Source: Candidatus Zipacnadia bacterium (lineage in GTDB: Bacteria > Armatimonadota > Zipacnadia > Zipacnadales > Zipacnadaceae). From it: a stretch of 46,146 bases of DNA. Of the stretch, positions 4,285 through 43,484 are shown piece after piece. The position numbers were made by a program, and so were the translations under genes. The notes beneath the pieces are model-generated. The model was not told the DNA's origin, searched no databases, and saw nothing but the letters and a program-made list of their open reading frames with translations. The stretch is from assembly GCA_029820565.1 (NCBI GenBank), contig JALGUR010000015.1, positions 1 through 46,146 of the forward strand. Direction: 5' to 3'. Position 1 is the first letter of the stretch; every line of letters starts with the position of its first letter.

Positions 4285-5502
4285 CTACGGTTGCCAGCGG
4301 ATTAGAGTCATACCCATTGTCAGATAATTATTGTGCACAGTCAGGATGGAGCCGTCATCCAGCAGCGTGGCGTACAAGTGTCCGCACTGGCCGATAGCAG
4401 GGCTCTGTGGATCAAAGAACTCCCACTCATCCAGGATATATTTGTGCTCCAGGTCCCAGGTCAGGCCGTTATCGTGGCTGACAATGGCCTCCACGCCTCG
4501 GCGATAGCTGACCAGTCCACTGTCGTCCATGTCGTGCCGAACTGTGACAGTCAGGACCAGGTCACCGTTGGGCAGGGTCATAATGTGACCGTGCATGCGA
4601 CCGGCTGGAAACAGGATGTTTACCGGCGACCAGGTCTTCCCATTGTCCTTGGAAATGGATATTCCCGTCCCCATGTACTGGTCACTGTGCGGCCAGGCAA
4701 AGAACTGTGCTGGCACCGCGGTGCGCAGGGCCGCAACCAGCCAGCCGTTGGCGGCCCGCGTCAGTGCGCCCTCATCTCCGCTCCGCACGTATGTCTGCCC
4801 CTGATAAGTCTCTTCCCAGCGCCATGCCTGAGGTTCGGTTTCGTCTACCCACGTCCGGCCACCATCATAGGACCATCGCAGAAAAACATGCTCGGGCTCC
4901 TGAGGAGACCAATGGCCTCCAGGACCAAAGTTATAGCCGATTTCAGCGATCCGTACACCGTTTCCTTGCTCATCGCGATCCACCACGGGGTTGCCCTCCG
5001 TGTGGAAGGAGGCGCCATTGCTGGCCGGTGGCACCTCTATGCCCTCCGACCAGGTCCGTCCGTAATCGCTGCTATAGTACCGCTTGCCTGAGACGAACGT
5101 CAGGTCGCCCCCGCCCAGATAGGCCGTCATCATGGGCCGACCATTGATATTGGGGATTGCCTCCAAGTCCGTCCACGTGTTTCCGCGGTCATTACTGAAG
5201 GCGATAATGGTCTTTTCGCCTTGTCCGCCACCGTACCACAGACTATTGCCCGGGTTGCAGATGCCCACCAACACCACTTCGCCACTGTCCATCTGGACCA
5301 GGCCGAAGCCTGCCGACCAGGCCTTCTCGCGATAGCTCAATATTTGACATTGGGCGGGTTTCAGTATCCAACCCCCCTGGCCATCGCCCTGTTTCATAAG
5401 GTGCTCTTTCCAGCCCTGCGCTTGGACGCCCGCGGTGGTCACCAGTAAAGCAGTAACTGCGAGCGACAACATGCACGCCGACCAACTTGATAGCTCAGAC
5501 AT
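4285..5502 (-). CDS. Secreted sialidase-like (BNR/Asp-box) beta-propeller protein, copy 1
   Basis: 405-aa exported protein with a signal peptide (hydrophobic core LAVTALLVTTAGVQAQ ending near residue 27). Five Asp-box turns SxDxGxTW mark a six-bladed sialidase fold: SNDRGNTW, SSDYGRTW, SYDGGRTW, SKDNGKTW and SHDNGLTW. The family includes sialidases and other exo-glycosidases acting outside the cytoplasm; substrate cannot be assigned. ATG 5502 has GAGAGGTGAG upstream and aligns with the start of the next gene. It is a tandem paralogue of 5599-6765, nearly identical in the signal peptide and in the C-terminal HNNYLTMGMTLIRW region, and more diverged in the middle, which here has a longer insertion (GPGGHWSPQEPEHV). 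Confidence 0.88.
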   Translation of the reverse strand: MSELSSWSACMLSLAVTALLVTTAGVQAQGWKEHLMKQGDGQGGWILKPAQCQILSYREKAWSAGFGLVQMDSGEVVLVGICNPGNSLWYGGGQGEKTIIAFSNDRGNTWTDLEAIPNINGRPMMTAYLGGGDLTFVSGKRYYSSDYGRTWSEGIEVPPASNGASFHTEGNPVVDRDEQGNGVRIAEIGYNFGPGGHWSPQEPEHVFLRWSYDGGRTWVDETEPQAWRWEETYQGQTYVRSGDEGALTRAANGWLVAALRTAVPAQFFAWPHSDQYMGTGISISKDNGKTWSPVNILFPAGRMHGHIMTLPNGDLVLTVTVRHDMDDSGLVSYRRGVEAIVSHDNGLTWDLEHKYILDEWEFFDPQSPAIGQCGHLYATLLDDGSILTVHNNYLTMGMTLIRWQP

Positions 5503-5598
5503 CTTACTCACCTCTCTTGTTCGAGGTTTTTTACCGTCGTCTTTGCTTCCCTCCGACGAGAGCCGTAAACCCGCCCAACACACTGGCTGAGCTGGCTC

Positions 5599-6765
5599 CT
5601 ACGGCCGCCAGCGGATCAGAGTCATACCCATTGTCAGATAGTTATTATGCACAGTCAGGATGGAGCCGTCGTCCAGTAGTGTCGAGTACAGATGCCCACA
5701 CCCGCCATTGTCGGGGTTATTGGAGTCAAAGAACTCCCACTCATCCAGTATGTATTTGTGCTCTAAGTCCCACGTTAGGCCATTATCATGGCTAATAATG
5801 GCCTCACAACCCCGGCGGTAACTGGCCAGTTGCCCATTTTGGAAGTCGTGCCGCACGGTCACCGTCATTACCAGGTCGCCACTGGGCATACTCAGCAGAT
5901 TCGCGTGCATTCTTCCGTCCACCACCCACTGGGCGGGCGACCAAGTTTGCCCTTCATCTCGGGAAATAGACACCCGCGTGCTGCGATAGCTGTCGTCGTG
6001 ACCAGCGAAGGGCAACAGCAGCGTACCGCAGCGCAGCGCGGCCACCAGCCAACCATTGTGGGCGCGAACCAAAGCTCCCTCGGTCCCGCGGCACCAGGGT
6101 TGGGGCCCACCGGTGCGACGGTCGGCATCAGGCTCAACGTCGTCAGTCCACGTCCGGCTCCCATCATAAGACCAGCGCAGGAACGTGGCCTCGGCGTTAT
6201 ACCCGATCTCAGCTATGCGCGTAGCCATTCCCTGCTCATCTCGGTCCACCAGGGGATTGCCTTCCGTGTAGAAGGGCCCACCGTTGATAGCCGGCTGCGC
6301 CGGTATGCCGGACCAAGTTCTACCGTAGTCGCTACTGAAGTAGCGCTGGCCTGACAGAAAGGTGAGGTCGCCCCCGCCCAGATAGGCCAGCATCATGGGC
6401 CGACCAGTTATCCCGGGAATGGCTTCAAGTTCAGTCCAAGTGTTCCCCCGGTCATTGCTGAAGGCGATAAGGGTCTGCTCAGCTTCGCCGCCACCATACC
6501 AGAGACTCTTGCCCGGACCACAAACACCCAACACCATCACTTCGCCGTTGTCCATCTGGGCGAGGCCGAAGCCCGCCGACCAGCCTTTCTCGCGGAAACG
6601 GAGGATCTGGCATTGAGCTGGTTTCAATACCCAGCCGCCCTGGCCATCGCCCTGTTTGATAAGGTGCTCTTTCCAGCCCTGCGCTGGGACGCCCGCGGTG
6701 GTCACCAGCAAAGCAGTAACTGCGAGCAACAACATGCACGCCGACCAACTTGATAGCTGAGACAT
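5599..6765 (-). CDS. Secreted sialidase-like (BNR/Asp-box) beta-propeller protein, copy 2
   Basis: 388-aa exported paralogue of the downstream gene, with the same signal peptide (ending GVPAQG) and five Asp boxes: SNDRGNTW, SSDYGRTW, SYDGSRTW, SRDEGQTW, SHDNGLTW. ATG 6765 was chosen because its upstream region (AAGAGAAGTGAGCGAG) is homologous to that of copy 1; an in-frame GTG lies at 6774. The two genes are 97 nt apart and both end in nearly identical DNA, so they arose by tandem duplication. Differences concentrate in the middle (copy 2 has VEPDADRRTGGPQPW), suggesting diverged substrate specificity. Both sit inside the C1/folate cluster without an obvious link to it. Confidence 0.88.
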   Translation of the reverse strand: MSQLSSWSACMLLLAVTALLVTTAGVPAQGWKEHLIKQGDGQGGWVLKPAQCQILRFREKGWSAGFGLAQMDNGEVMVLGVCGPGKSLWYGGGEAEQTLIAFSNDRGNTWTELEAIPGITGRPMMLAYLGGGDLTFLSGQRYFSSDYGRTWSGIPAQPAINGGPFYTEGNPLVDRDEQGMATRIAEIGYNAEATFLRWSYDGSRTWTDDVEPDADRRTGGPQPWCRGTEGALVRAHNGWLVAALRCGTLLLPFAGHDDSYRSTRVSISRDEGQTWSPAQWVVDGRMHANLLSMPSGDLVMTVTVRHDFQNGQLASYRRGCEAIISHDNGLTWDLEHKYILDEWEFFDSNNPDNGGCGHLYSTLLDDGSILTVHNNYLTMGMTLIRWRP

Positions 6766-9075: not shown

Positions 9076-9101
9076 GTCGGGGCAAGGATGCCCCTCCCAC
9101 A
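9076..9101 (-). repeat. Right REP end of the RAYT unit
   Basis: Inverted partner of 8533-8558 with one mismatch. Its outer end runs directly into the 16-bp tandem array. Confidence 0.85.
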
Positions 9102-9224
9102 GTATGTAATACCCACAGTATGTAATACCCACAGTATGTAATACCCACAGTATGTAATACCCACAGTGCGTAATACCCACAGTGCGTAATGCCCACAGTG
9201 CGTAATGCCCACAGCGCATAATAC
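9098..9224. repeat. 16-bp tandem repeat array, about 8 units
   Basis: Seven full units and one 15-nt partial unit of CACAGTATGTAATACC. The first four are identical (9098-9161); the others drift to CACAGTGCGTAATACC, CACAGTGCGTAATGCC and CACAGCGCATAATAC. The array fills the gap between the right REP end and the fhs stop codon. Units are head-to-tail with no spacers, so this is a minisatellite, not CRISPR. The gradient of divergence suggests recent expansion at the REP side. Confidence 0.95.
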
Positions 9225-37670: not shown

Positions 37671-38567
37671 TCATTTGCTTTGCATCCATAGCAGGGCAGC
37701 ACCGGGCGCAACTTCAATCTCAAGCGGCGTCTGAGCCCGCACGTCGCCGTCCACCAACGCCGGGCAGGGCTGATCCGTTCGTATTGCCACGTTCTGAGCT
37801 GTCAGCATGGTGACTTTGGGATCACTCATATGCGCACCGCGCCTTACCCGGGGCAGGGCACGCAGCACTGCCAGGCGGCCTCGCATGCCTACCAGCACCA
37901 CATCCAGCAGGCCGTCATCGCAACGCGCCCGCGGCGCGATCTTGAAGCCGGCACCGTAGGAGTATCCGTTGGCAACGGCCACAAGCAGCCAGTCGTCCTC
38001 GTAGCGCTGCCCGTCAACCTCCACAACGGCCGCCAGGGGCTGGCACCAGACCAACTCGGCAAGGACTGCCGGTAGGTACGCGACTAACCCAGATGTCAGG
38101 CGCCGGCGACGATTGATGCGTTCCGCGACGCGGGCGTCGAAGCCTACGCCGACAGAGTTAATAAAGTACCGCGAGGTAGCGACGAAGCGTCCCATGTCAA
38201 TGCGCCTGGGCGAGCCATCCAGCAACTGGCGCACCGCCCCGACGAGGTCACCGCTCAGCCCGACAAAACTAGCGAAATCGTTGCCAGTACCGCAGGGAAT
38301 AATCCCGCAGGGCACACCGGTGCCAACCAGGCCGTTGAGTAGTTCTGATAGCGTGCCATCACCGCCAACCCCAACCACCAGGTCATAGCCGCTCTCCGTG
38401 GCTTCGCGCGCCAGTTCGCCGGCTTCCCCTGGTGCTTTGGTCTCGATGAGTTCAATGCGCCAGCCGTCGTCCGCCATGAGGCGCGCTGCCTGGCGCCCTA
38501 CTAGGCCGCCGCGCAGCCTTCCGGCCTTTGGATTAACTATCAGCGCGACTTTCATCGTAATTCCCAT
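37671..38567 (-). CDS. Diacylglycerol kinase family lipid kinase
   Basis: 298-aa soluble kinase of the DagK/YegS family. Marks: VALIVNPKAGRLRGGLVGR at the N-terminus, VVGVGGDGTLSELLNGLVG and GIIPCGTGNDFASFVGL (the GGDGT and GTGNDFA motifs), and the closing VDGDVRAQTPLEIEVAPGAALL. ATG at 38567 or 38555 (MKVALIV); weak ribosome sites for both. A 52-bp piece of this gene (38071-38122) recurs at 40381-40432. It opens the lipid block. Confidence 0.93.
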   Translation of the reverse strand: MGITMKVALIVNPKAGRLRGGLVGRQAARLMADDGWRIELIETKAPGEAGELAREATESGYDLVVGVGGDGTLSELLNGLVGTGVPCGIIPCGTGNDFASFVGLSGDLVGAVRQLLDGSPRRIDMGRFVATSRYFINSVGVGFDARVAERINRRRRLTSGLVAYLPAVLAELVWCQPLAAVVEVDGQRYEDDWLLVAVANGYSYGAGFKIAPRARCDDGLLDVVLVGMRGRLAVLRALPRVRRGAHMSDPKVTMLTAQNVAIRTDQPCPALVDGDVRAQTPLEIEVAPGAALLWMQSK

Positions 38568-38738
38568 GATGTGGCGTCATCTATGAGAAGTTCGACAATA
38601 AGTGGCTTCTTCCCTTCTTCGCCCAGATGCCTGGGGTGGTGAAAACAGGCGGCAGGCCGACAGTGATGTGGGCGGCCCAACTCCTGTGGTAGTGAACGCG
38701 GCTGCTGAGGCGCTCAGTCTCATCAGATCCCCCAGGGA

Positions 38739-38767
38739 TTGAAACACTTGCCTTACTCTGGTATAAT
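38739..38767 (+). promoter_or_regulatory. Sigma-70 promoter ahead of the split PAP2 remnant
   Basis: TTGAAA (38739-38744) and TATAAT (38762-38767) with a 17-nt spacer. It faces the remnant and the nitronate-monooxygenase-like gene. Confidence 0.65.
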
Positions 38768-38779
38768 GAGATGTATATC

Positions 38780-38890
38780 CCCTGGCACGCTCCAGCGCTG
38801 ATAGCTATTCGATGCCCAGCGGCCATGCGCTGCTGCCAACCGTGGTGTGGGGGTACAGTGCGATGCAACTGCGGCCGTGGCGATGGGGCC
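38780..38890 (+). pseudogene. PAP2 pseudogene, first fragment
   Basis: About 111 bp matching 40701-40811 of the intact PAP2 gene at high identity, including the motif DNA for MPSGHAL and the following TVVWGY (here with scattered changes and a shifted frame upstream). Similarity stops abruptly near 38890. The 449-nt gap it lies in (38568-39016) holds otherwise only the promoter and an uninterpreted open stretch near 38582-38700. Confidence 0.8.
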
Positions 38891-39016
38891 GGACAAGCTT
38901 GCCGATCGCTGCTGCTTGTGCATACATCGCGCACCGGAAAAGGAATTGCTCACAGACTCGAAGAATACATCATTGACTAAAAGCCAAATGCGACATTTGA
39001 GAGAAAGCGAAAACTT

Positions 39017-40102
39017 ATGCGACGTAGCAAAATGCCCTCACTCAAGATCGGCGATCTCGAGGTCAACCCACCTATTATTCAAGGAGGAATGGGGGTCAGA
39101 GTCTCGAAGGCGAACCTGGCTGCCGCAGTGGCTAATGAAGGATGTGCGGGCATTATTGCCACGGTTGGTTTAGGGAAATTCGAAGACCATCCGGGATCGC
39201 AATTTGTCAGAATAAATGAGGAAGCCTTAAGGCAGGAAGTGCGGCGAGCGAAAAGCATGACCGATGGAATCATCGGCGCCAACGTGATGGTTGCGCTTTC
39301 CAATTATGCTAATCTGGCAACAACCGCTGCCGAAGAAGCGGTGGACATAGTTATCTGTGGCGCAGGACTTCCCCTTGATCTTCCCAAATTCATGAACGGG
39401 AAACACATCAAGTTGATCCCTATTGTCTCCTCCGCGAGAGCACTGAACCTCATCTACAGGAAATGGCACAGACGGTACGACAAAACACCTGATGCCGTGA
39501 TTGTAGAAGGGGTAAAAGCCGGTGGCCACCTGGGATTCAGGTATGAGGAAATAGTGAACGGAACAGTCCCGGCACTTGATGAAATCCTCGCCGAGGTGAT
39601 CAAAGCTGCCAATTCATTTGAACCCCATATCCCAGTAATCGCCGCCGGAGGAATCTTCGATGGACAGGATATCGCCCGGGCCATTACGTTAGGTGCTGCC
39701 GGTGTTCAAATGGGAACCCGTTTCGTTTGCACGGACGAATGTGATGTTCACGTGAGTTTCAAGCAAGCCTATCTGGACGCCAGGAAAGAGGATACAACCA
39801 TTATCAAAAGCCCCGTGGGGATGCCGGGAAGAGTCCTCAACAACGAATTCGTAGAGAAAATTAAGCAGGGCGACTCGGTTCCCTTCAAATGTACGTATAA
39901 ATGCCTAAAAACCTGCGACCCGAAGACCGCTCCGTATTGCATCGCCAAGGTTCTGGTGAATGCTGCCGAGGGAAATCCCAATGAGGCCTTTGTTTTTGCC
40001 GGGGAAAATGCTTACCGGTGCAACGAAATTGTTCCCGTCAAACACCTCATAGATGAGTTGGCTGAAGAAACTGCATACCATCTGACGAAAGATGCGGAGT
40101 GA
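39017..40102 (+). CDS. Nitronate monooxygenase / FMN-dependent TIM-barrel oxidoreductase
   Basis: 361-aa FMN enzyme of the 2-nitropropane dioxygenase/FabK family. Seen: NPPIIQGGMGVRVSKANLAAAVANEG at the N-terminus, VICGAGLPLDLPK, AVIVEGVKAGGHLGF with the active-site His, PVIAAGGIFDGQDIARAITLGAAGVQMGTRF. The C-terminus has a Cys-rich stretch CTYKCLKTCDPKTAPYC that is unusual and might hold a metal. ATG 39017 has GAGAGAAAGCG upstream; ATG 39032 is an alternative. By eye the gene is more AT-rich than its neighbours, and it lies between two halves of a PAP2 pseudogene, so it is probably acquired. Confidence 0.85.
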   Translation: MRRSKMPSLKIGDLEVNPPIIQGGMGVRVSKANLAAAVANEGCAGIIATVGLGKFEDHPGSQFVRINEEALRQEVRRAKSMTDGIIGANVMVALSNYANLATTAAEEAVDIVICGAGLPLDLPKFMNGKHIKLIPIVSSARALNLIYRKWHRRYDKTPDAVIVEGVKAGGHLGFRYEEIVNGTVPALDEILAEVIKAANSFEPHIPVIAAGGIFDGQDIARAITLGAAGVQMGTRFVCTDECDVHVSFKQAYLDARKEDTTIIKSPVGMPGRVLNNEFVEKIKQGDSVPFKCTYKCLKTCDPKTAPYCIAKVLVNAAEGNPNEAFVFAGENAYRCNEIVPVKHLIDELAEETAYHLTKDAE

Positions 40103-40244
40103 TGATGCCCGACGAAGCACTATACGAGGTGTCTGACGGTAACCTCCAATGCCGGTGGCACGGCACAGTGCATTCAACCTATCTGGCGTCGCTCAGTGTC
40201 GCCGTGTTCGTCGTGGCCCCGAGGTAAGCCTGACCCATCTTCAC

Positions 40245-40320
40245 CGGGCTGCCCATAGGCGCTTGCCTGCCGGTCGTGTACGTCAAGGTCCTGGCCTTCA
40301 CGCAGAAGCGGGAACTGCGG
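40245..40320 (+). pseudogene. PAP2 pseudogene, second fragment
   Basis: About 76 bp matching 40891-40966 of the intact PAP2 gene (GIGACL-VVYVKVLA region), with the sense frame preserved through a further stretch of hydrophobic codons (LSLVVSGAVLITATTLLY). It continues where the first fragment broke off, missing about 79 bp of the gene. Surrounding sequence 40103-40444 shows no intact gene. Confidence 0.8.
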
Positions 40321-40380
40321 CTTTCTCTGGTAGTTTCCGGGGCGGTGCTCATTACAGCCACAACTCTGCTGTACACATCT

Positions 40381-40432
40381 GGCAGGTGCGCGACTAACCC
40401 AGATGTCAGGCGCCGGCGGCGGTTGATGCGTT
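40381..40432 (+). repeat. Duplicate scrap of the dagK-like gene
   Basis: 52 bp matching 38071-38122 inside the diacylglycerol-kinase-like gene, with about five mismatches and in the same strand orientation. It ends 12 nt before the intact PAP2 start codon. Confidence 0.85.
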
Positions 40433-40444
40433 TGGCGGTTCAGC

Positions 40445-40984
40445 ATGAATAGTCTACATCTATTCTTGGCCCTGGAGACTATGCGTAATATTGCGCTGGA
40501 TGGCTTCTTCTGCGCCGTCACCTACCTGGGATCTGAGGAAGCATACTTGGCGTTGATTATCATCGTCTATCTGTGCGTGAGCCGCCGCCTGGGGTTTCGC
40601 CTGCTGGTGATATTCGCCCTGTCGGCCTACGCCGTGTCGGTGCTCAAGGAACTACTCGCTACTGACCGGCCATTTGTGATGTATCCTGACATTGTCCGTC
40701 CCCTGGCACTCTCCACCGCCGATGGCTATTCCATGCCCAGCGGCCATGCGCTGCTTTCAACCGTGGTGTGGGGGTACATTGCGCTGCAACTGCGCTCGTG
40801 GCGTTGGCGCCTGGCTGCGCTGGCTGTAATCCTATTGGTGTCATTCTCGCGTGTATATCTGCACGTGCACTGGCCGGCAGATGTGCTGGCCGGGCTGGCC
40901 ATAGGCGCTTGCCTACTGGTCGTGTACGTCAAGGTCCTGGCCTTGAAGGAAAAGCGAGAACTGCAGGCTGTATGGATATGGTGA
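40445..40984 (+). CDS. PAP2-family phosphatase, second gene
   Basis: 179-aa membrane protein with family motifs KELLATDRPF (KxxxxxxRP), MPSGHALLSTVVWG and SRVYLHVHWPADVLAG, so the active site is complete. About five membrane segments. Similar full-length relatives that I recall extend ~100 residues further; here the reading frame stops at 40982-40984, while codons for PTAGALLGGGLGYM and further hydrophobic helices continue in the +1 frame downstream (to 41300). The gene is thus probably truncated by a frameshift, or has evolved a shorter form. Its upstream flank is a scrap of the dagK-like gene. Confidence 0.82.
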   Translation: MNSLHLFLALETMRNIALDGFFCAVTYLGSEEAYLALIIIVYLCVSRRLGFRLLVIFALSAYAVSVLKELLATDRPFVMYPDIVRPLALSTADGYSMPSGHALLSTVVWGYIALQLRSWRWRLAALAVILLVSFSRVYLHVHWPADVLAGLAIGACLLVVYVKVLALKEKRELQAVWIW

Positions 40985-40985
40985 A

Positions 40986-41300
40986 AATTTAGCCAACGGA
41001 CCGCCCACGGCCGGCGCATTGTTAGGGGGCGGACTAGGCTACATGGCCCTTGGCCAGGTGGGCGGCTATACGGAGCGGGTTAGGCCCACCGGTCAAATTG
41101 TCAAGGCAGTGTCCGCTCTGGCCGTGGTGCTGTCGGGGAGATACCTTCTGACGAAACTGCTCGGTCCCGCTCCGTGGGCCGGATTGCTAACCTATATGGC
41201 CCTGGCCTTCGTGGCCACCTTCGGCCTCCCTGTGGCCATCACCTTAAGCACACAAATCGCCACACCCGAGAAGCGGCACTCCTCGCCGATGGCGAAGTAA
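40986..41300 (+). pseudogene. Displaced C-terminal part of the PAP2 gene (+1 frame)
   Basis: Reading on in the +1 frame from about 40950 gives NLANGPPTAGALLGGGLGYM and hydrophobic stretches (AVVLSGRYLLTKLLG, AGLLTYMALAFVATFGLPVAI) before TAA at 41298-41300. This resembles the extra C-terminal membrane segments of long PAP2 proteins. It has no own ribosome site (first start TTG 41019). A single frameshift between about 40945 and 40985 would explain both pieces. Confidence 0.6.
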
Positions 41301-41352: not shown

Positions 41353-41529
41353 GAGGAGGTCAAGGCAGACAAATACACTCAAAGATGTGCGCAAGCCCGT
41401 GGGCCATGTGAAGGGTGACAGTCAGCACCAGGTATGGGGTTGATCCTGTTCAATCCGACGGGCATGGGTGTGGCGTTGATGGCGGGGGGCTGGGGGGACG
41501 CCAAGTTCTACTCAGAGTTTTACTCATGA
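41353..41529 (+). pseudogene. Decayed coding fragment with frameshifts
   Basis: Coherent peptide pieces appear in successive frames: KFSEEVKADKYT, then LKDVRKPVGHVKGDSQHQVWG, then LILFNPTGMGVALMAGG and GDAKFYSEFYS ending in TGA (41527-41529). Joined they read like the C-terminus of one protein with two frameshifts. The last piece overlaps a possible ATG start (41526) of the following gene. Family not recognised. Confidence 0.35.
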
Positions 41530-41546
41530 TAGAGGGGGTGAGTCTG

Positions 41547-42266
41547 GTGAGCCAGGCGTCTGAGAAGAAGCAGAGAAATCACGGCTGCATTGTGTTAGCA
41601 ATGGGCCTTTGGGCCTTCATCCTGGCCGGATTGTTCACGCCGAGTTTCAGGCCGTATCATCCCTCTATAGAGGTGCTCTTGGGTACTGCGCTGGCAATAG
41701 TCCTAGCGGCAGCTACTGTGGTCGGGGGTGTGCTGGTTCTGGTCTCTCGGGGCAGAGGAGCATTGTACAGCATTCTAGGGATACTGTGCGCGGGTATAGG
41801 ACTTTACATTTGGATTAGCGGATACTTCTGGGTGAACCAACGAGGGCTCTCACCTGGTACGCATTGTATGAGCAACGTAAAACAATTGACTCTCGCGCAA
41901 CTAATGTACGCGCAGGAGGGCGAAGGGCGCTTCCCGCCAGCGGACAGTTGGCCTGAGGCGATCTCCCAATATGTGAGGGAAGAGGAGACGTTTTTCTGTC
42001 CGCGCGATAGCCGGCCCAAGGCCCAGCGTCAAGGCTCCGGCAAGCGGAAGAGCAGTTACACAATGAGCAGACACCTGGGCGGGCAGCGGAGCCAAAGCGA
42101 GGATGCGGCGGAAGTGAGCCTGCTGTTTGACGGGGAGATGCTTTTCGGAGGGCACGAGGCCGCTGCCTTCCGGCATAGCACCTCCTTACGTCTGAACGTC
42201 GGCTATGCTGATGGCCATGCGAGTAGCCTGACCCGGGAGGAGTTCGGCGAACTACGCCTGAAATAG
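41547..42266 (+). CDS. Membrane protein with DUF1559-like H-X9-DG C-terminal domain
   Basis: 239 aa from GTG 41547 (AGGGGGTG about 8 nt upstream); ATG 41526 and the frame from 41415 are alternatives. Four hydrophobic segments (AMGLWAFILAGLF, LLGTALAIVLAAATVVGGVLVLV, ILGILCAGIGLYIWI), then a soluble domain with CMSNVKQLTLAQLMYAQ, FFCPRD, SYTMSRHLGG, LLFDGEMLFGGHEAAAFRHS and NVGYADGHASSL. This C-terminal half matches the H-X9-DG region of type II-secretion pseudopilin-like proteins, but the prepilin helix is replaced by a multi-helix membrane domain. Unusual fusion; function unknown. Confidence 0.7.
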   Translation: MSQASEKKQRNHGCIVLAMGLWAFILAGLFTPSFRPYHPSIEVLLGTALAIVLAAATVVGGVLVLVSRGRGALYSILGILCAGIGLYIWISGYFWVNQRGLSPGTHCMSNVKQLTLAQLMYAQEGEGRFPPADSWPEAISQYVREEETFFCPRDSRPKAQRQGSGKRKSSYTMSRHLGGQRSQSEDAAEVSLLFDGEMLFGGHEAAAFRHSTSLRLNVGYADGHASSLTREEFGELRLK

Positions 42267-42359
42267 TCACGCGGGAACGATGGATAGTTCCAAGATTAGA
42301 ACGAAGGCACTTCTGGCACCGCTCATCTTCGGCGTTCGCGCCGGCATGGTGCAGGTCTG

Positions 42360-43484
42360 GTGACCTTCGCCACTGTACTGTTGTTCTGGACCGTCAGTTC
42401 CGAAGCCTGGACGTCCGTCGGCTGGCAGATTGGCCAAGACGAGGCGGCGCAGCACTTCGCACTATCCGGCGTGTGGGTCATCTTCGGCGCTGTGCTCATG
42501 GCTATTGGCGTGGCCCGCGACGTAGGCTCCCTGCGCTGGGCGGCCCTTGCTCTGTTCGCTGTAACAGCTATCAAGATCTTCGGTGCGGACCCACCCCTGA
42601 GTGACCCGGATTATGCGCCGCTCATCAATCCGCACGCCGGCCCGCTGCTGGCCATTACGGTCCTGCTGTATACGGCCGGAGCCTGGTACGCCAGGAAGAA
42701 GGACGCGGATGATCCAGAGCGCACCGTGGGTACAGCATTGGTAGTGGCTGCCACCGGCCTGCTGCTATGGGTTGCTAGCTCGGAGGCGTGGCTGTTCCTC
42801 GGCTGGCGCACCACGGCCGGCGTGGCCGGACAGCACATGGCCCTGTCCATAGTGTGGCTGATCTTCGGCGCCACCATGCTCATCATGGGCCTGCAGCGAC
42901 GCCAGGCCGCTCTGCGCTGGCTGGGCCTGGTGACATTTGGCTTGACCGCTGGCAAGGTCTTCATCGTTGACCCGGACTTGACGGCCTCAACCTACCAACT
43001 GCTGGCAAATCACCACGCCTTCCCGCTGCTGGTCATTGCGGCCATGCTGTTCCTGGCACCGCACTGGTACCGGCGGGACTTGGAGCACGTGGGGGAGGGC
43101 GAAGAGATGGTGGCCACGGCCATGCCCTTCCTCGCCAGCGTCCTGCTGTGGTGGGTTCTGACCTCCGAGGCCTGGCACTTCGTGGACTGGGGACTCGGGG
43201 CGGAAGGAGATGCTCAACAGTACGCGCTGTCGGCGGTTTGGACAGCATATGGCGCAGTGCTCGTCGCGATTGGGCTCATACGCCGGAACGCTTCCCTCAG
43301 GTGGATAGGGATGGCTCTTCTGGCTATCACCATCGTGAAAGTCTTTTCCCTCGATCTGCGTGAACTCGACATCGTCTATAAGATCCTGGCATTGCTAGGC
43401 CTCGGGCTGGTGCTAATAGCGGTGGGGTTCGGCTATCAGCGTCTCGTCAGGGACCAGGCTGAGCAAGGTAGAACTGAAGATTAG
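42360..43484 (+). CDS. DUF2339-like membrane protein with three internal repeats, likely 5'-truncated
   Basis: 374 aa, almost entirely hydrophobic segments. A unit of about 110 residues occurs three times: SSEAWTSVGWQIG...AAQHFALSGVWVIFGAV, SSEAWLFLGWRTT...AGQHMALSIVWLIFGAT and TSEAWHFVDWGLG...DAQQYALSAVWTAYGAV, each followed by LRWxGLxxxxxTxxKVFxxD. This pattern is that of the C-terminal part of DUF2339 proteins, which normally run 600-1000 residues. GTG 42360 is the first usable codon: an in-frame stop at 42297 lies upstream. A short out-of-frame ATG ORF (42280-42362) may be a remnant of the lost 5' end. Confidence 0.75.
   Translation: MTFATVLLFWTVSSEAWTSVGWQIGQDEAAQHFALSGVWVIFGAVLMAIGVARDVGSLRWAALALFAVTAIKIFGADPPLSDPDYAPLINPHAGPLLAITVLLYTAGAWYARKKDADDPERTVGTALVVAATGLLLWVASSEAWLFLGWRTTAGVAGQHMALSIVWLIFGATMLIMGLQRRQAALRWLGLVTFGLTAGKVFIVDPDLTASTYQLLANHHAFPLLVIAAMLFLAPHWYRRDLEHVGEGEEMVATAMPFLASVLLWWVLTSEAWHFVDWGLGAEGDAQQYALSAVWTAYGAVLVAIGLIRRNASLRWIGMALLAITIVKVFSLDLRELDIVYKILALLGLGLVLIAVGFGYQRLVRDQAEQGRTED

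Follow-up and report, generated by a model that had tools for sequence, protein, structure and literature searches.

A FabX-like gene of apparently foreign origin behind a promoter-like repeat, among duplicated gene fragments, in a Candidatus Zipacnadia genome

Anatomy of the locus

The window, the 46,146 nt stretch of DNA analysed here, belongs to a MAG in 165 contigs with an estimated contamination of 4.87%. Within it, a complete lipid-kinase gene (DAGK) is followed by two incomplete copies of a PAP2 gene, between the parts of which lie a dispersed repeat (R1), an FMN enzyme gene and short pieces of neighbouring genes (Table 1).

Table 1. Features of the locus in the window, with their coordinates and the evidence for each.
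Feature	Position	Strand	Evidence
DAGK/YegS-type lipid kinase gene, complete; left native flank	37671..38567	-	Pfam DAGK_cat and YegS_C
Intergenic remnant with orphaned promoter of PAP2 copy A	38586..38769	+	DNA alignment to relatives
PAP2 copy A, fragment 1	38772..38890	+	38778-38890 corresponds to nt 255-367 of the local PAP2 ORF
R1, dispersed promoter-like element of about 110 bp, native to the bacterial family	38895..39002	+	86.5 bits, profile
FMN gene, NMO family, FabX-like, 361 aa, apparently foreign	39017..40102	+	Pfam NMO, structure matches, Chloroflexi homologue
Apparent opening codons of the next gene of the putative foreign operon (beta-ketoacyl synthase), then cut	40103..40118	+	Nucleotide match past the FMN stop
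DUF2339 gene fragment	40180..40251	+	86% over 72 nt to G009 L084 3157-3086, within its DUF2339 ORF
PAP2 copy A, fragment 2	40244..40386	+	Relatives' PAP2 and local PAP2 copy
DAGK gene fragment, copy of 38071-38127	40381..40437	+	89% over 57 nt; DAGK of G009 and G006 also match
PAP2 copy B, short upstream remnant and ORF 40445-40984 (179 aa)	40429..40984	+	Relatives' PAP2
PAP2 copy B, C-terminal part, out of frame	40985..41300	+	40429-41267 aligns with G009 PAP2, L084 5056-4171
DUF2339 C-terminal remnant, about 970 N-terminal residues lost	42338..43484	+	Pfam DUF2339; 90% aa identity to residues 971-1316 of the G009 protein
R1 copies	38895-39002; L015, L016, L017, L022, L091-L159		Family genomes

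The two fragments of PAP2 copy A, described in an earlier note on this DNA, are real. The first (38778-38890) aligns without gaps with 40699-40811 of copy B (100 of 113 nt identical, 88.5%; E = 1.7e-36) and the second (40244-40322) aligns with 40890-40969 (about 80 nt, 89% identity, one gap; E = 6e-23); these identities are far beyond chance, and the order and strand of the fragments are those of the local copy, as claimed. The second fragment had been thought to end at 40320, but comparison with the relatives carries it 64 nt further, to about 40386. It loses its match to the local PAP2 because copy B itself has lost about 47 nt near 40966, a stretch that the alignment places in three relatives and in fragment 2. 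Copy B, previously taken to be intact, is thus truncated to 179 aa, although it keeps the catalytic PAP2 domain (Pfam).

At the protein level copy B is 89, 88 and 86% identical to the PAP2 proteins of the family relatives G009, G007 and G006, respectively. Fragment 1 is 89% identical to G007 over 38772-38883; fragment 2 is 79-83% identical to PAP2 of G006, G009 and G007 over 141-143 nt and matches 40890-40964 at 89%. Nonsynonymous changes make up 7 of the 12 differences between fragment 1 and copy B and 9 of the 13 between fragment 1 and G007, whereas the differences of copy B from G007 and G009 are mostly synonymous; this contrast points to a history of decay in copy A. Different PAP2 copies may have supplied its two halves.

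An uninterrupted PAP2 gene is present in G009, G006 and G007, and the fragments in the window represent a second copy, as had been supposed. In G009:C14 and G006:C50, DAGK and a single PAP2 gene are divergent, and the window DAGK is syntenic with both (91 and 86% protein identity, respectively). PAP2 of G009 comprises 292 aa from the aligned start codon and is followed directly, in the same direction, by a DUF2339 gene whose product exceeds 1,316 residues. The region upstream of PAP2 in G007:C498 resembles the remnant at 38586-38769 in the window, with 82.8% identity over 38648-38769. This remnant contains the orphaned PAP2 promoter, TTGAAA-17-TATAAT with TG ahead of the second hexamer (38739-38767; 11 of 12 consensus matches), a stretch that can be aligned in G009 and G006 too. 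The ancestral order, as read from the gene order of the relatives, is DAGK(-), PAP2(+), DUF2339(+), as kept in G009. The two genomes of the same genus (G001 and G002) contain no close DAGK orthologue and no PAP2 above 61% identity; they are 76 and 84% complete, so that an absent locus is indistinguishable from a missing one. In G006:C50, the PAP2 sequence (L085, 5728 onwards) changes abruptly near the C-terminal part, which suggests that this neighbourhood has been rearranged in more than one lineage.

The position of the FMN gene between the PAP2 halves stands as first described, but R1 and the DUF2339 fragment on either side of it had been overlooked, as had the DAGK fragment beyond the second PAP2 fragment. 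For 40119-40179 (about 60 nt, from the end of the apparent foreign operon piece to the DUF2339 fragment) neither the genome nor the relatives' locus yielded a source. Elsewhere in the genome, the N-terminal residues lost from DUF2339 have no copy above 41% identity. An ORF that by eye is prepilin-like (41415-42266) separates PAP2 copy B from the DUF2339 remnant; at this place G009 carries the N-terminal portion of its DUF2339 gene. Elsewhere in the window, an array of about 8 copies of a 16-bp unit, CCCACAGTATGTAATA and its variants, occupies 9096-9223, and within 4285-6610 direct repeats that have diverged to 77% identity over 300 nt stand about 1.3 kb apart; they are probably paralogous domains or genes in tandem.

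The FMN gene and the element in front of it

The FMN protein matches Pfam NMO over residues 11-350 (E = 1.2e-61). Among solved structures, its best matches carry the name 2-nitropropane dioxygenase; one of them is 7e1q (E = 5e-71), the structure of FabX of Helicobacter pylori. FabX of H. pylori has been described, including the role of the catalytic histidine H182 (PMC8626469). This histidine (SGGHQGF) is aligned with H171 of the FMN protein (AGGHLGF), and the FabX cluster cysteines C300/C304/C308/C320 are aligned with C292/C296/C300/C308. The loop ahead of the last cysteine differs, being x11 in FabX and x7, four residues shorter, in the FMN protein. The likeness thus comprises membership of the NMO family, the catalytic histidine and the C-terminal cysteine quartet, together with a beta-ketoacyl synthase as the donor-type neighbour gene. 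Judged by its residues the FMN protein is FabX-like, and it is predicted to be a FabX-type [4Fe-4S] NMO enzyme. An assignment to FabK (enoyl-ACP reductase II) was rejected, the score being 173 bits against a TIGR03151 equivalog cut-off of 453 bits.

The FMN gene, judged by eye in the earlier note to be AT-richer than its flanks, indeed has a GC content of 50.7% compared with 56-63% for its neighbours, and a GC3 of 0.54 compared with 0.64-0.77. A close homologue is absent from all 14 other genomes of the family, and the only one among 40 relatives (57% identity) is in G019, which belongs to another family of the order. The nearest gene in the genome collection is that of a Chloroflexi MAG (L073; 79% amino-acid identity over the full length), and a partial match of 80% occurs in a Pseudomonadota MAG. 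The nucleotide match to these MAGs sets in with the FMN start codon and breaks off 9-13 nt beyond the stop (at 40111 for L073 and 40115 for L083); in both MAGs the next gene begins right after the FMN stop, and in the Chloroflexi MAG it is a ketoacyl-synt gene (Pfam). A match that runs from the start codon to just past the stop points to a piece of a foreign operon that was captured and cut. In a plasmid search the NMO relatives were all below 60% identity, so that a plasmid donor is not indicated. The gene therefore looks foreign, a lateral acquisition AT-richer than its surroundings. A simple codon count against the Chloroflexi gene gives 151 synonymous and 126 nonsynonymous differences; these counts, the open reading frame and the conservation of the key residues suggest that the gene has been maintained.

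R1 lies directly upstream of the FMN gene. With a profile built from six copies, and matches counted at E <= 0.1, R1 has 20 matches in the genome and occurs in 10 of the 14 other family members; genus g4 and G004 gave no match in this search, and outside the family a single genome of another family (G016) did. The 3' edge of the element is sharp and the 5' edge softer. Its core, AGGANTT-N15-GAATA, occurs 17 times in the genome in this orientation and 0 times reversed; it is also given as AGGAATT-N15-GAATA with a conserved downstream box ending AAATCTCGG. The start of a long same-strand ORF lies within 300 nt downstream of 36 of the 59 testable copies (21% at random places), while 5 of the 59 have a divergent ORF start upstream (19% at random places) and 5 of the 59 lie inside a long ORF (41% at random places); the test was mechanical, with copies chosen by similarity to the six founders, and the asymmetry is large nonetheless. 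The copies are divergent in sequence and stand in front of unrelated genes: the 47 downstream proteins include 3 similar pairs and are mostly unrelated, with varied metabolic roles. A further pattern match that resembles R1 (L024) lies within a histidine-kinase-like ORF and was dropped as a chance occurrence. No consensus base pairs were predicted in alignments of 6 or 69 copies and no Rfam match was found at E <= 1, and a riboswitch or structured leader was rejected on these grounds. No known family was found for R1, and a literature search for such an element returned nothing relevant.

From its orientation and placement we regard R1 as a putative promoter. The 15 nt between its end and the FMN start codon are the usual distance for R1. 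R1 was found neither in the contigs of the foreign FMN homologues nor at the relatives' PAP2 loci; a single weak match (10.3 bits) lies 2.6 kb past the G006 locus. Since R1 normally lies just upstream of gene starts, the foreign gene has probably taken over a host promoter, from which it would be expressed. The joining of R1 and the FMN gene could also have preceded their arrival at this locus.

Junctions and the history of the locus

Compared with the ancestral order, the sequence of the locus steps back twice from left to right, once from DUF2339 to PAP2 (at about 40244) and once from PAP2 to DAGK (at about 40381), and duplication junctions are therefore needed besides an insertion. In G009 the DUF2339 piece lies about 1.4 kb downstream of the PAP2 stretch that matches fragment 2. 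The parental sequences, read by eye, overlap by 10 nt at the DUF2339/PAP2 junction (CCGGGCTGGC), by 7 nt at the PAP2/DAGK junction (CGGTAGG) and by 4 nt at the DAGK/PAP2-B deletion junction at about 40430 (CGTT). Overlaps of these lengths would arise at a random junction with chances of about 1e-5, 5e-4 and 0.017, respectively; they are estimates, with present-day sequences standing in for the parents, for the 3 of about 7 junctions at which each side has a usable parent. Overlaps of 10, 7 and 4 nt are as expected if the joins were made by short-homology illegitimate recombination. At both back-steps, the repeats are in direct orientation and the junction falls at short shared sequence, the pattern of a tandem duplication. 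The left edge of the inserted stretch is the native-type R1 rather than the foreign gene, and the start of PAP2 copy A has also been deleted.

Taken together, these observations make it probable that the locus is the debris of tandem duplications and of one lateral gene acquisition, in which a foreign gene captured a promoter within a decaying duplication. Illegitimate recombination at homologies of 4-10 nt would have duplicated parts of a stretch of about 4 kb in direct orientation, giving rise to the two back-step junctions and to deletion junctions from DAGK to PAP2-B (about 40430) and from the promoter to PAP2-A (about 38774). A piece of a foreign fatty-acid operon, consisting of the FabX-like gene and the first codons of the ketoacyl synthase, would have landed in the redundant PAP2 copy A, with the foreign gene joined 15 nt behind the native-type R1. 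Copy A would have decayed afterwards, while copy B lost about 47 nt and DUF2339 its N-terminal part. We infer both this order of events and the recombination mechanism from the arrangement of the fragments. Events of an ordinary kind, taken together, suggest how an imported gene may have gained a host start signal.

The most serious competitor, possible although we consider it the less probable course, is a single replication-repair accident with serial template switching (MMBIR-like) that copied 72 nt of DUF2339, 143 nt of PAP2 and 57 nt of DAGK at once, perhaps together with incoming FMN DNA, in place of large tandem duplications that were eroded later. It would account for pieces that are short, directly oriented, joined at short homologies and all drawn from within about 4 kb, and the similar identities between copies A and B for all three pieces (88-89%) fit a single date. 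However, serial deletions in an old tandem array would leave the same picture, and the orphaned PAP2 promoter and the intergenic remnant (38586-38769) point to a formerly larger copy A.

The earlier note took the FMN gene to have entered a PAP2 duplicate in one step, at a cost of about 79 bp of that copy; this reading is unlikely. It agrees with the order and orientation of the PAP2 fragments and with an FMN gene that is foreign by composition and by phylogenetic affinity. It is contradicted by the piece of DUF2339 that separates the FMN gene from the right-hand PAP2 fragment, unless the insert carried this piece, and by the DAGK fragment that follows; copy A also lacks its 5' end. None of these features follows from one insertion and the loss of 79 bp.

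Arrival of the FMN gene on a mobile element (an IS, a transposon or an integron cassette), with R1 as one of its ends, is very unlikely. The dispersed repeat does lie exactly at the left edge of the insert, but the right edge carries neither R1 nor another repeat, the other R1 copies each precede one gene start and bracket no genes, and R1 is missing from the contigs of the foreign homologues. As first noted, the insert contains no transposase ORF among those listed and no convincing terminal inverted repeats at its edges; it has no integrase ORF either. As regards the folded attC site that would border an integron cassette, the R1 alignments predict no base pairs and Rfam gave no match at E <= 1. 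An assembly artefact joining DNA of different organisms, a concern for a fragmented MAG with the contamination estimated here, is the least credible explanation, as both flanks are native and syntenic with relatives, the window contains no runs of N, no read-length repeat accounts for a false join, and the family-native R1 directly adjoins the foreign gene.

Comparison with known systems

R1 resembles REPINs (PMC8049555) and mobile promoters in being short, dispersed, intergenic and upstream of unrelated genes. It differs from them in its strict gene-ward orientation and in having no conserved RNA structure, inverted ends or known transposase. R1 may be a plain promoter or operator class rather than a mobile element. 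A bolder proposal, which we put forward tentatively and hold to be rather improbable, is that R1 is a mobile promoter, or a class of alternative-sigma promoter, not previously described, which occurs family-wide and has been placed before many unrelated genes, with the present locus catching a foreign fatty-acid gene soon after it gained this promoter. For an uncultured bacterial family such as this, R1 would be of practical use in approaching gene regulation.

To our knowledge, promoter capture of transferred genes is known chiefly from laboratory evolution. In experiments with Escherichia coli and Bacillus subtilis, spontaneous tandem duplications formed by illegitimate recombination activate transferred genes via promoter capture (PMC11111574). 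Capture through spontaneous deletion is treated in the same work. The locus described here shares with that system a foreign coding sequence at a host promoter-like element, recombination at short homologies and direct tandem duplication in the same place. It differs in being an old natural locus, known from its sequence alone, in which the junctions of the duplication are found next to the captured gene instead of at its promoter, and in which activation is putative. As a natural locus in which the foreign part (beginning at the start codon), the host-type upstream element and the scars of duplication can be separated by comparison, it provides a useful worked example alongside these laboratory systems.
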